This document shows, in pieces, positions 20,283 through 26,274 of a stretch of 64,000 nucleotides of DNA (positions are counted from its first letter, which is position 1; each line of letters begins with the position of its first letter). The position numbers were made by a program, and so were the translations under genes. A model generated the notes under the pieces. That model searched no databases, was not told the DNA's origin, and saw only the letters and a program-made list of their open reading frames with translations. Source of the stretch: Halopseudomonas litoralis. GTDB lineage: Bacteria; Pseudomonadota; Gammaproteobacteria; Pseudomonadales; Pseudomonadaceae. The stretch is from assembly GCF_900105005.1 (NCBI RefSeq), contig NZ_LT629748.1, positions 2,542,001 to 2,606,000 on the forward strand. Reading direction: 5' to 3'.

Positions 20283-23200
20283 TTACCTGTAATGCAGAGA
20301 GACGCTGCCTTTGCCCAGCTGGTCACGCAGCGTCTGTACCAGGTCATCGGCAGGCTCGACCCGCCACGCTTCGCCCAGACGCAGCAGGGCCTGCGCATCG
20401 GGGCGCTGCAACTCGATGGTGACCGCGCAACTGCCCTTGTACTGCTGCAGCACGCCGGCCAACCGGCCCAGGCATTCCGGGCCGTGCCGGCTGGTATCCA
20501 GATTGATACGCACGCTGTCCAGCAGCGAGGTGCGGGCCTCCTCCAGGCTCATTACCCGTTTGGCGCGCACACGCATGCCGCCGGAAAAGTCATCCACCGC
20601 CACCTCACCCTCCACCACCAGCAGCGCGTCCTTCTGCAGCAAGGATTGCGCAGCCTGATAGGCCTCGGCGAAAAGGGATACTTCGACTCGTGCCGAGCGG
20701 TCATCCAGCGTCACGAAACCGACCTTGTCGCCGCGCTTGCTTTTCATCACCCGCAGGTCGAACACCAGCCCCGCAATAGTCTGCGAATCCCGCGAGGGTT
20801 TGAGATCGATAATGCGCTGACGGGCAAAACGCCGGACTTCCTTCTCGTACTCATCGATGGGATGGCCGGTCAGATACAAGCCAAGCGTTTCCTTTTCGCC
20901 GCGCAGACGCTCCTTGAAGGTCCATTCACGCTCGTTGCGATAAGCTTCAAACAGGTCCCGCTCGGCCGCTGGCCCGAGCAGAGCGCCAAACAGATCATCA
21001 TGCCCACTGTCCGCGCTGCGCAGGGTCTGCTCGGCCGCTGCAATGGCTTCTTCCATGGCGGCCGCCAGCGCCGCCCGGTTGCGATCCACTTTCTGCAGAT
21101 AAGCCTGAGGTTCAGTATCGAAGAAGGGTCCCATGGCGTCCAGCGCGCCGGAACGAATCAATGCTTCCATGACCCGCTTGTTGATCCGCTTGAGGTCCAC
21201 GCGTGCACAGAAATCAAACAGGTCGGCAAAGGGGCCGCCCTGCTGCCGGGTCCGCACTATGGTTTCCACCGGGCCCTCGCCCACGCCCTTGATGGCACCG
21301 AGACCGTATACGACACTGCCACTGTCATCCACGGTGAACTTGTATTCGGAGATATTTACATCCGGCGCCTTCATCCGCAGCTTCATGCTGCGGCACTCCT
21401 CGATCAGCGTCACCACCTTGTCGGTGTTGTGCATGTCTGCCGAGAGCACTGCAGCCATGAAAGGCGCCGGATAATGCGCCTTCAGCCAGGCGGTCTGGTA
21501 GGACACCAGGCCATAGGCTGCCGAGTGCGACTTGTTGAAGCCGTAACCGGCGAATTTCTCCACCAGATCGAAGATGTTGCCCGCCAGATCAGCATCGATA
21601 TTGTTGCCACTGCAGCCCTCAAGGAAGATCTGCCGTTGCTGAGCCATTTCCTCGGGCTTTTTCTTGCCCATGGCCCGACGCAGCATATCCGCACCGCCAA
21701 GGGTGTAACCGCCCATGACCTGGGCGATCTGCATCACCTGTTCCTGATACAGAATAATGCCGTAGGTCGGTTTGAGTACTGGCTCCAGACCCGGATATTG
21801 GTAGTTCGGGTGCGGATAGGAGATCTGCTCACGGCCGTGCTTACGGTTGATGAAGTCGTCGACCATGCCTGACTGCAACGGCCCCGGGCGGAACAGGGCC
21901 ACCAGTGCGATCATGTCTTCCAGGCAGTCGGGCTTGAGCTTCTTGATCAGCTCCTTCATACCACGCGATTCTAGCTGGAATACCGCCGTGGTCTCGGCCT
22001 TCTGCAGCATCTGATAGGTAGGCGCGTCATCCAGCGGGATGAAGTTGATATCCAGCGCGTCCTTGCCTTCCTCGGCACGGATACGATTGATGGTCTCCAT
22101 GGCCCAGTCGATGATGGTCAGGGTACGCAGGCCGAGAAAGTCGAACTTCACCAGACCGGCAGATTCGACATCATCCTTGTCGAACTGGGTTACCAATCCC
22201 TCGCCCGCCTCATCGCAATACAGCGGTGCGAAATCGGTCAGTTTGGTCGGCGCAATCACCACACCCCCGGCGTGCTTGCCGACGTTGCGGGTGATGCCTT
22301 CCAGCTTCAATGCCATGTCCCAGATTTCCTGGGCTTCCTCATCAGCCGCCAGGAAATCACGCAGGATTTCCTCCTGCTCGTGGGCCTTGGCCAGGGTCAT
22401 GCCGACCTCGAAGGGAATCATCTTCGATAGCCTGTCGGCCAAACCGTAGGACTTGCCCTGCACCCGCGCCACGTCGCGCACCACCGCCTTGGCGGCCATG
22501 GTGCCGAAGGTGATGATCTGTGATACCGCGTTGCGGCCATAGGCCTCGGCAACGTATTCGATGACCCGGTCACGGCCTTCCATGCAGAAGTCGATATCGA
22601 AGTCGGGCATGGATACCCGTTCCGGGTTGAGGAAGCGCTCGAACAGCAGATCGTATTGCAGAGGATCGAGATCGGTGATCAACAGGGAATAGGCGACCAG
22701 CGACCCTGCGCCCGACCCCCGGCCCGGCCCCACTGGCACGCCATTGTTCTTGGCCCACTTGATGAAGTCCATGACGATCAGGAAGTAACCGGGAAAACCC
22801 ATCTGGATGATGATATCCAGTTCAAACTTCAACCGATCCAGATAGACTTGGCGGCGCGCCTCATAGTTTTCCGAGTCCGGCGGCAATACCACTTTGAGGC
22901 GCTCTTCCAGCCCTTCCAGCGAGACCTCGCGGAAATAGTCATCCATGGTCATGCCGTCAGGCACGGGGAAATCTGGCAGGAAGTAAGTACCCAGCTGGAC
23001 GTCGATATTGCAGCGTTTGGCAATTTCCACGCTGTTGGCCAGCGCCTCGGGGATATCCGAAAACAGCTCAGCCATTTCCTCGGGTGACTTCAGATACTGC
23101 TCTTCGCTGTATTGCTTGACCCGGCGCGGATCACCCAGAGCACGACCTTCGCCGATGCAGACGCGGGTTTCGTGGGCCTCGTAATCTTCACGATAGATGA

Positions 23201-23807
23201 AGCGCACATCGTTGGTGGCGACCACCGGACAGCTGAACCGACCAGCCAGGGCTACCGCAGCGTGCAGATGCTCTTCGTCATTGGGGCGTTTGGTGCGTTG
23301 CAGCTCCAGATAGAAACGCCCGGGAAAGACACTCATCCAGTATTGCAGCAGATCATCGGCGTGCGCCGGATCGCTGGACAGCAGAGTCTGCCCAATCTCC
23401 CCTTCCTTGGCACCGGACAGCGCAATTACCCCTTCACTGGCTTCCGCCACCCATTCGCGGCGAATGGTCACCAGACCATTACGTTGTCCATGCGTGTATC
23501 CACGGGAAATCAGCTCGGTGAGGTTGCGATAGCCTTGCCGATTCATGGCCAGCAGGGTCATGCGGCTCAGATGGTTTTCATCTTCCGCATCGGTCAGCCA
23601 GATATCCACACCGGAAATCGGCTTGATGCCGGCGCCCATGGCAGCCTTGTAGAACTTCACCAGACTGCACATGTTGTGTTGATCGGTCACCGCCACCGCC
23701 GGCATCCCTGCTCCGCCCACCGCCTTGATCAAGGGCTTGATTCGTACCAGGCCGTCGACCAGGGAGTATTCGCTGTGGACACGCAGATGGATGAAGGAAA
23801 CGCTCAT
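20283..23807 (-). CDS. dnaE: DNA polymerase III subunit alpha (replicative)
   Basis: Catalytic subunit of the replicative polymerase. The 1174-residue protein starts MSVSFIHLRVHSEYSLVDGL, the PHP domain (first 280 residues). The polymerase domain contains GPGRGSGAGSLVAYSLLITD and MPDFDIDFCMEGRDRVIEYV with the active-site aspartates, then KPTYGIILYQEQVMQIAQVM and GYGFNKSHSAAYGLVSYQTA. The C-terminus holds an OB-fold region and a beta-binding tail. Length matches Pseudomonas DnaE and is distinct from the shorter dnaE2 also present in this window. Confidence 0.97.
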   Translation of the reverse strand: MSVSFIHLRVHSEYSLVDGLVRIKPLIKAVGGAGMPAVAVTDQHNMCSLVKFYKAAMGAGIKPISGVDIWLTDAEDENHLSRMTLLAMNRQGYRNLTELISRGYTHGQRNGLVTIRREWVAEASEGVIALSGAKEGEIGQTLLSSDPAHADDLLQYWMSVFPGRFYLELQRTKRPNDEEHLHAAVALAGRFSCPVVATNDVRFIYREDYEAHETRVCIGEGRALGDPRRVKQYSEEQYLKSPEEMAELFSDIPEALANSVEIAKRCNIDVQLGTYFLPDFPVPDGMTMDDYFREVSLEGLEERLKVVLPPDSENYEARRQVYLDRLKFELDIIIQMGFPGYFLIVMDFIKWAKNNGVPVGPGRGSGAGSLVAYSLLITDLDPLQYDLLFERFLNPERVSMPDFDIDFCMEGRDRVIEYVAEAYGRNAVSQIITFGTMAAKAVVRDVARVQGKSYGLADRLSKMIPFEVGMTLAKAHEQEEILRDFLAADEEAQEIWDMALKLEGITRNVGKHAGGVVIAPTKLTDFAPLYCDEAGEGLVTQFDKDDVESAGLVKFDFLGLRTLTIIDWAMETINRIRAEEGKDALDINFIPLDDAPTYQMLQKAETTAVFQLESRGMKELIKKLKPDCLEDMIALVALFRPGPLQSGMVDDFINRKHGREQISYPHPNYQYPGLEPVLKPTYGIILYQEQVMQIAQVMGGYTLGGADMLRRAMGKKKPEEMAQQRQIFLEGCSGNNIDADLAGNIFDLVEKFAGYGFNKSHSAAYGLVSYQTAWLKAHYPAPFMAAVLSADMHNTDKVVTLIEECRSMKLRMKAPDVNISEYKFTVDDSGSVVYGLGAIKGVGEGPVETIVRTRQQGGPFADLFDFCARVDLKRINKRVMEALIRSGALDAMGPFFDTEPQAYLQKVDRNRAALAAAMEEAIAAAEQTLRSADSGHDDLFGALLGPAAERDLFEAYRNEREWTFKERLRGEKETLGLYLTGHPIDEYEKEVRRFARQRIIDLKPSRDSQTIAGLVFDLRVMKSKRGDKVGFVTLDDRSARVEVSLFAEAYQAAQSLLQKDALLVVEGEVAVDDFSGGMRVRAKRVMSLEEARTSLLDSVRINLDTSRHGPECLGRLAGVLQQYKGSCAVTIELQRPDAQALLRLGEAWRVEPADDLVQTLRDQLGKGSVSLHYR

Positions 23808-23885: not shown

Positions 23886-23950
23886 CGATCGTTCCCACGC
23901 AGAGCATGGGAGCCATCGGAAACCGAGTACCGACTCCGTGCCAGATCGTT
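23886..23950. repeat. Palindromic intergenic repeat, left of the IS element
   Basis: Contains GATCGTTCCCACGC (23887-23900), an intact version of the sequence split by the IS, and then AGAGCATGGGAGCCATCGGA and AACCGAGTACCGACTCCG. The 47-nt stretch 23892-23938 matches 25244-25290 on the other side at about 40 of 47 positions. It belongs to the CCCACGC-type palindromic repeats common between genes in pseudomonads. The final GATCGTT (23944-23950) is the left half of the IS target. Confidence 0.7.
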
Positions 23951-23962
23951 TGTATGGTTCAT

Positions 23963-24140
23963 CTGCAGGTCCAAAATGGACCTGTCAGGGTGGAGGGGCT
24001 CAATCGTTTTCCGGCCTTTCGGCACGGACTGTGGGAGATTTCGCCCCACCCTCACCATAAACGCCAATAGAGAATCCATCGGCAGAGCCAAGCCGCTCAG
24101 ACCGACGATACGTCGCAAGCCAGCGTCTGGTGAGCCCTGA
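23963..24140 (+). ncRNA. Predicted bridge RNA / seekRNA of the IS110 element
   Basis: The region 5' of the transposase gene folds into three domains in the order known for IS110 guide RNAs. First is a hairpin, CAGGTCC-AAAAT-GGACCTG (23966-23984). Second is a target-binding loop closed by GGGT..GGGGC (23988-23999) with GCCCCACCC (24043-24051); it holds AATCGTT (24002-24008), an inner hairpin CCGGCC-TTTC-GGCACGG, and GTGGGAG (24031-24037). Third is a donor loop closed by CTCACCA (24051-24057) with TGGTGAG (24128-24134) and ACGC with GCGT. ATCGTT equals the left flank, GTGGGAG is the complement of the right flank CTCCCAC, and AGAATC (24071-24076) equals the element's right end (25138-25143). The fold was drawn by eye. 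Confidence 0.7.
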
Positions 24141-24175
24141 CAAGTCAAAGACTACTTTAGCTTGGAGGACGCGCC

Positions 24176-25114
24176 ATGACAAAATCTGTTGAATCTATCC
24201 TGGTGGGTATCGATGTCAGCAAGGCGGAGCTGGTGATCGCTCGCAGTGACGCCCCTCAGATCGACACGATCAACAACTCCCCCAGCGCTATTAAGCGCTG
24301 GTTGAAGTCGTTGCCGCAGGGCTCAAGGATCGCGCTGGAAGCCACCGGAATTTATCATCGGCAACTGGCCACGCTGGCTCATGCAGCAGCACACCCGCTC
24401 TACTTACTGGATGGTTATCGGCTCAGCCGTTACCGCGATGGGGTAGGTACCCGGGCCAAGACCGACCCGTCTGATGCCAGACTGATCCTGCGTTATTTGA
24501 GCAACGAGCTTGAGGAGCTCAAGCCTTGGATCCCTGCCCATGATGCGTTTTACCGCATCCAAAGCCTGATGCGCCGTCGAGCCTCGCTGGTTCATACCCG
24601 AGTAGCGTTGAGCCAGAGCTTGCAGGATGTACCTGAGTTGAAGCAGGCGAGCAAACAGCTGGATACCCATATCCGTCGCGTTGAGCTGCTGATTACCCAG
24701 CGCCTGAAGCAGGCCTTGGCAGACGTAGGCTGGGACGCAGATGCAAAACGCTGCATGGACATCGAAGGCATTGGCGAGCTGAGCTCAATGGCACTCGCCA
24801 ACACCTTCCACCGAGGTCGCTTCAAGAGCAGTGACGCCTTCATCGCTTACCTGGGGATGGATGTCAAAGTCCGAGACTCTGGCAAGCAGGCAGGCCGACG
24901 AAAACTCACCAAGAAAGGCGACCCGGAATTACGCCGCCTGCTCTACAACGCGGCTATGGCTGCCCGTAAAACCGCTGCCTGGAAGGCGTTATACGAGACC
25001 TATCTATCACAGGGACTCAAGCCCATCCAGGCGCTGATCAAGCTGGCAAGAAAGTTGGCGCGCATTGCCTTTGCCTTGATGCAGAATCAAACGGTTTATC
25101 GGCCCAAAACCTGA
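24176..25114 (+). CDS. IS110-family transposase (DEDD recombinase)
   Basis: A 312-residue recombinase. The N-terminal RuvC-like DEDD domain shows Asp13 (VGIDVSKAEL), Glu55 (ALEATGIYH) and Asp97/Asp100 (TDPSDARLI). A helical linker follows (about 110-190), then the C-terminal domain with IEGIGELSSMALAN, and DVKVRDSGKQAGRRKLTKKG where Ser235 is the likely nucleophile, ending GDPELRRLLYNAAMAA. All catalytic residues are present and the frame is intact, so the element may be active. TGGAGGA gives a good ribosome site 7 nt before the ATG. It should work with the RNA encoded just upstream. Confidence 0.95.
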   Translation: MTKSVESILVGIDVSKAELVIARSDAPQIDTINNSPSAIKRWLKSLPQGSRIALEATGIYHRQLATLAHAAAHPLYLLDGYRLSRYRDGVGTRAKTDPSDARLILRYLSNELEELKPWIPAHDAFYRIQSLMRRRASLVHTRVALSQSLQDVPELKQASKQLDTHIRRVELLITQRLKQALADVGWDADAKRCMDIEGIGELSSMALANTFHRGRFKSSDAFIAYLGMDVKVRDSGKQAGRRKLTKKGDPELRRLLYNAAMAARKTAAWKALYETYLSQGLKPIQALIKLARKLARIAFALMQNQTVYRPKT

Positions 25115-25144
25115 TAAAAGGGGTTGGCATGAACCATAGAATCT

Positions 25145-25290
25145 CCCACGCTCCAGCGTGGGAATGCCTGCTGGGACGCTCTGCGTCCCGACCTTGCTCT
25201 GGCGCAGGTTGCTGTCCGGACGCTGGAGCGTCCACAGCACAGGCTCCCATGCAGAACATGGGAGCCCTCGGAAATCGAGTACGGGCTCCG
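25145..25290. repeat. Array of four palindromic hairpins downstream of ispH
   Basis: Four inverted repeats lie within 146 bp. TCCCACGC/GCGTGGGA (25144-25163), GGGACGC/GCGTCCC (25173-25189), GGACGC/GCGTCC (25218-25233) and CTCCCATG/CATGGGAG (25244-25264). The last 47 nt repeat the segment left of the IS element. Such arrays are intergenic repeats in pseudomonads. The IS interrupted the first palindrome at its left edge. The array abuts the ispH stop and may form its mRNA 3' end. Confidence 0.75.
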
Positions 25291-25291
25291 C

Positions 25292-26239
25292 TTACTGCAC
25301 TTCGACTACCCGCAGCTCCTTCGGCATGCTGAAGACGATATTTTCTGCCCGTCCCGCCAGCTCCTCGACACTCTCGGCACCATTGTCGCGCAGATGCTGA
25401 ATAACCTGCTGCACCAATACGTCCGGAGCGGAAGCGCCGGCGGTGACGCCGATATTGCGCACATTCTCCAGCCACTCAGGGCGGATCTCGTCAGCACCAT
25501 CAATCAGGTAGGCCGGCGTACCCATACGATCCGACAGCTCACGCAGACGGTTGGAGTTGGAACTGTTCGGGCTACCGACCACCAGCACCAGCTCGCACTC
25601 GCTGGCCAGTTGCTTGACCGCATCCTGGCGGTTCTGGGTGGCGTAGCAGATATCGTCCTTGCGCGGGCCGTCGATAGCCGGGAAGCGCGCACGCAAAGCA
25701 TCGATGACGCGGGCGGTATCATCCATGGACAACGTAGTCTGGGTGACGAAGGCCAGTCGTGAGGGATCTTTCACCTGCAACCTGGCTACGTCCTCCTCGT
25801 TTTCCACCAGGTAGATAGCGCCACCGCTGCTGTCATCGTACTGACCCATGGTGCCTTCGACTTCCGGGTGTCCAGCATGGCCGATAAGAATGCATTCGCG
25901 ACCATCCCGGCTGTAGCGCACCACTTCCATATGCACCTTGGTGACCAGCGGGCAGGTGGCATCGAACACTTTCAAACCACGAACCTCGGCATCATCGCGT
26001 ACGGCTTTGGATACGCCGTGGGCGCTGAAAATGACGATGACATCGTCGGGGATCTCATCCAGCTCATCGACAAAGATCGCACCGCGGTTACGCAGATCTT
26101 CGACAACGAACTTGTTGTGCACGACTTCGTGACGCACATAGATCGGCGGGCCGAATACTTCCAGCGCTCGGTTGACGATTTCGATGGCACGATCGACGCC
26201 GGCACAGAAGCCGCGCGGGTTGGCCAGTTTGATCTGCAT
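25292..26239 (-). CDS. ispH: 4-hydroxy-3-methylbut-2-enyl diphosphate reductase
   Basis: Last enzyme of the MEP pathway; an iron-sulfur enzyme making IPP and DMAPP. The 315-residue protein starts [20 protein letters not shown]; the Cys in this segment, the one in [13 protein letters not shown] and the one in [11 protein letters not shown] bind the cluster. EGTMGQYDD and [15 protein letters not shown] are also conserved. The start at 26239 is preferred over an in-frame ATG 21 nt upstream because family members begin here. It is the last gene of the run ileS-lspA-fkpB-ispH, and its 3' end abuts the hairpin array next to the IS. Confidence 0.96.
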
Positions 26240-26274
26240 GGGGAGCCTCGATTGAGTCATGGATGTAGGGCGGC

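Follow-up and report, generated by a model that had tools for sequence, protein, structure and literature searches.

The question raised by this locus is whether the non-coding 5' region of an IS110-family insertion sequence encodes a bridge RNA whose guides can be read against the element's own flanks, and which target sequence those guides specify. The locus lies in a stretch of Halopseudomonas litoralis DNA of 64,000 nucleotides (the window), in which the element occupies 1,192 bp and carries the bridge RNA in its left end, with 225 nt of non-coding sequence to the left of its gene and 28 nt to the right. It is flanked by what we take to be a DnaE-like gene (20283-23807) and an IspH-like gene (25292-26260). 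We consider it highly probable (roughly 0.94) that this is an IS110-family insertion sequence which moves by bridge-RNA-guided recombination, a reading drawn from features of the DNA itself, namely the ends, the target, the agreement and covariation of guides and flanks, the covariation of the stems, the promoter words and the catalytic residues. The element, its surroundings and its gene are as follows:

23951 to 25142, plus strand: IS110-family insertion sequence with left end TGTATGG and right end CATAGAAT, core dinucleotides excluded; ends set by comparison of copies
23944 to 23950, plus strand: left target GATCG with the target-derived left core TT (23949-23950), from the left flanks of the copies and uninterrupted repeats GATCGTTCCCACGC
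25143 to 25151, plus strand: donor-derived right core CT (25143-25144) and right target CCCACGC, from copy comparison and genomic target repeats
23887 to 23900, plus strand: intact target repeat GATCGTTCCCACGC, 50 bp upstream of the element, from the sequence and a genome pattern search
24176 to 25114, plus strand: IS110 recombinase of 312 aa, the element's single gene, from its domains, the NCBIfam cut-off and alignments with proteins of known structure

The recombinase contains both IS110 domains (Pfam PF01548 and PF02371), exceeds the NCBIfam cut-off of the IS110 RNA-guided transposase (NF033542), and in phmmer searches of solved structures matched ISCro4 (E 2.3e-20) and IS621 (E 5.1e-18). 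Counterparts of the IS621 catalytic residues, as named in PMC11208158, are D13, E55, D97, D100 and S235, where D13, which the printed IS621 alignment does not cover, was assigned via the ISCro4 alignment and a common motif; in 29 proteins, the window's included, the first four are invariant and S235 is nearly so. The combination of a DEDD/RuvC domain with a Tnp domain carrying a catalytic serine, by which the IS110 family is recognised, is present in this protein. The same frame (24176-25114) also gave a weak match to a TIGR-Tas endonuclease model (E 3.9e-05), which stayed under the cut-off.

The target was defined from the other copies of the element. BLAST gave 11 matches in the same genome, the window's own and 10 further ones, five of the latter being near full-length at 100% identity (rounded; one is 2 bases short) and one at 96%. 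Both ends are present at eight insertion sites (L001 in the window, L002 to L006, L008, and L007 with L010, the last two being a single copy split by another insertion); L009 is a deletion derivative with the left end and an intact right-target flank, and of L011 only a fragment of the right end is present. Left flanks could be read in nine cases (L001 to L009) and are GATCGTT or the near variants GATGGTT, TATCGTT, GACCGTT and GATCGCT, with the left core being TT in eight and CT in L008, and the right flank is CTCCCACGC in all nine copies counted (L001 to L006, L008, L010 and L009), L011 being omitted because its right flank starts with CCCCCC and has no core. The genome contains 16 exact uninterrupted matches to GATCGYTCCCACGC, all with TT, and a further 22 places with one-base variants of the target, while the reversed control pattern of GATCGTTCCCACGC had no match in the genome; a CT core was found in a minority of the repeat copies. 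From the flanks and the uninterrupted repeats together, the target is therefore GATCG-YT-CCCACGC, and the target predicted by the sequence-only reading matches both the flanks of the copies and the 16 intact repeats. All eight insertion sites and the deletion derivative fit it, with no more than one of the five left letters changed, and the expectation that the sites of copies would all read ATCGTT/CCCAC holds for 9/9 readable left flanks, near variants included. Most of the listed target sites form the foot of a REP-like palindrome, GATCGTTCCCACGCTCC(n)GCGTGGGAA, and four lie uninterrupted and spaced 212 bp apart inside a 212-bp tandem array (L182, 161-956; 3.8 copies).

Some of the copies carry changes of their own. 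The interrupter of the split copy, presumably an IS3-like element (L181, about 197-1431; genome 838797-840029), contains two frames that overlap and is bounded by a 4-bp GACT repeat. The copy in L006 (genome 896535-897724) is 2 bases shorter and has its recombinase frame split in two. When compared with L008, the deletion derivative L009 (genome 1972616-1973107) has ...TTATCGG-CT fused exactly to the CT-CCCACGC of the right target, as if an internal CT had recombined with the right core and the deletion had been made at the core dinucleotide, the plain alternative being a 3-bp microhomology (CTC).

For comparison with relatives, the best 80 of 203 loci were retained from one genome-contig scan, and 125 protein matches were parsed, including loci from other searches. 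Both ends were readable in 114 of these (11 were dropped), corresponding to 98 unique sites, and the left non-coding regions were thinned by k-mer similarity to 36, the window's among them. One relative was found in viral contigs, and none in a plasmid collection searched with tblastn at E 1e-60. The left ends of L120 and L063 have an altered letter (CGTATG and TGGATG, respectively), and these ends are possibly decayed. The RNA structure in the left end was assigned as follows:

23979 to 24145, plus strand: bridge RNA region with outer helix, target-binding loop and donor-binding loop, from covariation and a covariance model built without the window
23965 to 23984, plus strand: 5' stem-loop GCAGGTCC/GGACCTG, overlapping a strand of the outer helix, from folds
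23992 to 24050, plus strand: target-binding loop, from fold, covariation and covariance model
24010 to 24028, plus strand: inner hairpin of the target loop, TCCG(GCC...GGC)CGGA, with three double-change pairs
24052 to 24133, plus strand: donor-binding loop, from fold, covariation and covariance model, its outermost stem being unconfirmed on the alignment (44.4% of cells paired)

The order of 5' hairpin, target loop and donor loop, which had been proposed by eye, was recovered both by folding and by an independent covariance model. The fold of 23951-24175 had a z-score of -2.02 (5/200 shuffles were as low), and that of 23960-24145 one of -2.94 (1/200). RNAalifold on a MAFFT alignment of the 36 regions gave a sparse structure of 18 pairs, 9 of them with double changes, since loop lengths and guide regions vary. 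Stem covariation, named beforehand as a check, was tested on the 19 of the 36 sequences which share the stem layout of the window, with a structure drawn mostly from the window's fold. In this alignment 88.9% of cells were paired and 12 pairs had changed on both sides (40 such cells), whereas shifting the 3' partners by 1-3 columns left 2-5 pairs and 2-8 cells; four of five measures were unreached by any shuffle, and further pair types were not above the shuffles (284/500). As one of the aligned sequences had itself supplied the tested structure, a second model was built from 17 relatives, excluding the window and its nearest relative L123, and omitting the outermost stem of the donor loop because of its low pairing on the alignment. 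Over the 64 kb this model found 23979-24145 at 144.6 bits (E 1.4e-29), with a sole other match at E 5.9, and in the whole genome (150 of 1248 first-look candidates scored) all nine matches were at copies of the element. It also recovered 37/37 source sequences, 17 of which were its training set, together with four weak matches (E 0.024 to 0.99). The whole window gave no match to Rfam at gathering scores. The 5' stem-loop is absent in relatives with a short non-coding region, and possibly acts as a switch.

Within the target loop, two guides were assigned:

24003 to 24008, plus strand: left target guide ATCGTT, equal to 23945-23950, from flank covariation and shuffles
24031 to 24037, plus strand: right target guide GTGGGAG, pairing with the core CT and CCCAC, from the sequence and flank covariation

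The claimed identity of ATCGTT with the left flank can be read directly. GTGGGAG is, as had also been claimed, the reverse complement of CTCCCAC (25143-25149), but its CT (25143-25144) is the donor core and not target, so that the independent match on the right side is five letters (CCCAC) and not seven. The chance of finding such words was estimated from 20000 dinucleotide shuffles of the non-coding region: single words appeared in 633 (ATCGTT), 309 (GTGGGAG) and 1526 (AGAATC, from the donor loop), and ATCGTT followed by GTGGG within 50 nt in 22; no shuffle had ATCGTT followed by GTGGGAG within 50 nt, nor the three words in order. Across the 36 elements, the left guide agrees with its own flank at a mean of 6.0 of 7 non-core positions, compared with 3.84 for permuted flanks, and none of 20000 permutations, which ignore relatedness, reached 6.0. 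The window's element alone agrees at four of the seven non-core positions plus both core letters, a value close to that for permuted flanks, and its left guide is matched equally well by the flank of L146. In 34 of the 36 the right guide complements the core and the right target letter for letter, and the remaining two have one wobble each (G-T in L061, U-G in L046). The guide CGTTGAG of L046 and its target CTCGACG represent a two-sided switch and read as the strongest single case of guide and target changing together, the pairs in the other elements being GTGGGAG or GTAGGAG with CTCCCAC or CTCCTAC.

These comparisons also bear on whether the region acts as a guide at all. The recombinase protein alone could recognise the REP-like palindrome, with the non-coding region being a translation-regulating leader, as its place directly upstream of tnp would allow and as is described in PMC8450116 for ISPpu9, where tnp is regulated by its 5' UTR and sRNAs, a proposal which predates bridge RNAs. 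This is very unlikely given that recombinases which are 88% (L057/L061) and 91% (L082/L127) identical lie in different targets, with different left guides each fitting its own flank, and that right guide and right target switch together. We give even less credence to the matches being a by-product of captured REP-derived sequence without guide function: while REP words are abundant in such hosts and the REP-like word CCCAC is common to target and guide, the target matches are on opposite strands, on either side of a conserved hairpin and at the same place in the alignment, the right guide is present in 36/36 (two with wobble) and the left guide matches 4-7 of 7 positions in 35/36, and the guides covary with the flanks. 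For the bridge RNA as a guide, the case named as refuting it (the same region next to unrelated targets with the guide unchanged) was not the rule, as guides and flanks change together, with L097, L146 and L086 as exceptions. The poor fits are the site of L097, with three mismatches, and those of L086 (3/7), L146 (4/7) and L129 (4/7). The retargeted series (the 88-91% identical recombinase pairs and L046) shows guide positions that changed together in nature. The guides also follow the order given for the IS110 group in section 12 of PMC11187229, the guide pairing with the top strand (24031-24037) being 3' of that pairing with the bottom strand (24003-24008). Two copies in one genome, L146 and L125, lie in the same sequence CCCTAACCCTCT/CCCACAAGTGGGAGAGGG with a poor guide match, and this site is perhaps another repeat or a secondary target.

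The donor and handshake guides were assigned as follows:

24071 to 24076, plus strand: left donor guide AGAATC, equal to 25138-25143, from the co-change in L060
24108 to 24110, plus strand: outer part of the right donor guide, AT, pairing with A23954 and T23955, with A24110 able to pair with T23953, from conservation in the 36 elements
24115 to 24119, plus strand: core part of the right donor guide, GCAAG, pairing with CT and then with left-end T, G and, through a wobble, T; CAAG in 36/36
24038 to 24039, plus strand: target-loop handshake guide AT, which could pair with the donor T and A before the core, from the sequence and the position rule, only its first letter being invariant in the 36
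24120 to 24121, plus strand: donor-loop handshake guide CC, its first C pairing with G23948 of the target, from a pairing test

The match of AGAATC to the right end of the element can again be read directly, and consists of the right end plus the first core letter; donor covariation was seen in one relative only, L060, which has AGGATC in both the right end and the left donor guide. The right donor guide had been read as ATACG (24108-24112), and this survives in part: the word is present and AT(A) is kept (AT in 33/36, the third A in at least 32/36), but CG does not belong to the guide as re-read here, with a C in the fourth place in only 7/36 despite the left-end TGTAT being invariant in all 36, and the core part is GCAAG instead. 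In every one of the 36, AT is followed after 4 or 5 letters by (G/A)CAAG (G in 25, A in 11), which pairs with CT plus TG(T). By its sequence this split guide agrees with the discontiguous one of IS621, where nine RNA letters pair with seven DNA letters (PMC11208160), with a longer looped-out part (4-5 letters in the window's element and relatives versus 2 in IS621); the partner of T23953 is either the third A of ATA or the G of GCAAG. The donor guides of IS110-family elements fit the joined ends, as do AGAATC and AT(A) plus GCAAG. The handshake guides were placed by the position rule of PMC11208158, and position 1 of the donor-loop handshake guide pairs with target position 7 in 32/36 (permuted mean 27.7, with 29/50000 permutations as high), and position 2 in 7/36.

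A promoter word was found in the right end:

25124 to 25129, plus strand: -35 box TTGGCA, which closure of the circle would place 17 bp from the -10 box TATGGT (23953-23958), from a spacing test

When right end, CT and left end are joined in silico, TTGGCA comes to lie 17 bp before TATGGT, and TTG was found at a spacing of 17 in 20/36 elements and in 0 or 1 at each other spacing between 13 and 21. IS621 has the same arrangement of a promoter across the RE-LE junction. By analogy with IS621, which serves as the model for expression, the RNA-protein complex, the circle, the cut positions and strand exchange, the element would be excised as a circle, the joined ends of which (RE-CT-LE) would form a promoter for transcription of the left end into an RNA some 170 nt long. 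In this RNA, the donor loop would pair with the joined ends AGAAT-CT-TGTAT, and the target loop with GATCG-YT-CCCAC at the foot of the host REP-like palindrome. A recombinase tetramer would then cleave the two top strands immediately after the core dinucleotide, on its 3' side, and swap them, which would leave the target core TT at the left junction and the donor core CT at the right one.

The target core of the window's element (TT) differs from its donor core (CT), so that cleavage of the top strands on the 3' side of the core, as described for IS621, should give TT on the left and CT on the right. This strand footprint was indeed seen, with TT at 8/9 left and CT at 9/9 right junctions, and L008 may have met a copy of the repeat with a CT core. 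Because of the TT/CT difference, the junctions reveal the source DNA of each top strand, and this mark could make the resolution of the Holliday junction and of mismatched cores testable in living cells. The uniform junctions suggest that the bottom-strand core information is not kept, although their number is small and directed repair could explain them; for this step PMC11208158 goes no further than a possibility.

By the position of its RNA and the order of its guides, the element resembles the IS110 group in how it would work, and it has the long left end with bridge RNA and short right end of that group. Subterminal inverted repeats are absent or short in the IS110 group, whereas that of the window's element is 10 bp (TATGGTTCAT), and we have therefore filed it at the level of the IS110 family, with the group label left open on that criterion. 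A repeat of this length is inside the 7-17 bp range of the IS1111 group, as are the 7 bp of L008, but an IS1111-type element, in which the RNA would act like a seekRNA with another guide order, is highly improbable: the guide RNA of that group is in the right end downstream of tnp, while the non-coding region here is upstream (225 nt versus 28 nt) and the guides are ordered as in IS110. Repeats in the other 35 elements of the sample are 4-7 bp long, and as the 96% identical copy in L008 shares only 7 bp, the 10-bp repeat is taken as an oddity of this copy type.

The closest parallel to a bridge-RNA-guided element of this kind is found in the descriptions of IS621 in PMC11208160 and PMC11208158, with which it shares a left-end bridge RNA made up of 5' stem-loop, target loop and donor loop, the inclusion of the core in the guides, a REP target and the catalytic residues. 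In contrast, the IS621 recombinase is only a remote match to that of the window (the phmmer E-value given above), its target differs, and the window's element has a 7-letter right target guide, a longer subterminal repeat, and a TT target core against a CT donor core. ISPpu10 of P. putida is likewise an IS110-family element of the Pseudomonadaceae that inserts in REP sequences with a 2-bp repeat (PMC1525189), and an extended-data legend of PMC11208160 lists it among elements with a predicted bridge RNA; this likeness is one of published description. The seekRNA element ISEc21 is also of IS110 type with an upstream RNA and the same order of bottom- and top-strand guides, but has its target in a transposase gene instead of a REP sequence and a longer recombinase of 358 aa (PMC11187229), and natural redirection is described for its relative ISMch6 in section 12 of that paper. 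Insertion of IS110 elements in REP sequences has been known since 2006 at the latest (PMC1525189), and bridge RNAs were published in 2024 (PMC11208160, PMC11208158). In the open-licence literature we found no account of the target of this element or of guides following host REP families, and four spellings of the target repeat had no match in open-licence papers, which is not proof of novelty. The element thus represents a new case of a known type of RNA-guided insertion, and offers a well-defined natural bridge-RNA system in which the target and, within a single genome, nine sites can be read.

Finally, we compared the guides with the repeats of their hosts. A REP-associated transposase was considered as the source of the host repeats, and no link is claimed: the genome has one Y1_Tnp gene above the Pfam cut-off (L183, genome 2287678-2288013), and beside it only the repeat word GCGTGGGAA was matched, in one place, with the rest of the repeat absent. 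It is possible, if somewhat short of an even chance, that the clade tracks its hosts, with guides being rewritten to the REP repeats of each lineage, the switch to a TT core in the window's lineage leaving the CT donor core unmatched, and the bottom-strand core information being discarded after strand exchange; were this so, the guide read from an element would predict the repeat family of its host. The window's genome has 16 copies of its own target and none of the 15-mers AGGCTCGCTCCCACA and AAGCCCGCTCCCACA, two targets that are typical of the Pseudomonas relatives. Among the 24 genomes searched, those with guides of the AGGCTCG or AAGCCCG class were used to test for an excess of the own target (the rest have other guides), with the class of each genome being read from one or two sampled loci. 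Counts of AGGCTCGCTCCCACA/AAGCCCGCTCCCACA on both strands were 1156/18 (G320), 815/103 (G229) and 519/176 (G237) in genomes with the guide AGGCTCG, and 14/1188 (G262), 1/457 (G383) and 0/256 (G303) in those with AAGCCCG, so that the own target is in excess in 6/6 genomes in which the guide is exactly one of these two. With the one-letter variant AGACTCG the counts were 35/116 (G364), 248/386 (G207) and 527/33 (G346), two of which are against the rule. Judged by these counts, guides appear mostly to follow host repeats. The target of the window's element is present in 159/398 genomes of the family, with hundreds of copies in some, and G237 has 275 copies of it, yet its sampled element aims elsewhere; the presence of a repeat alone therefore does not set the guide.
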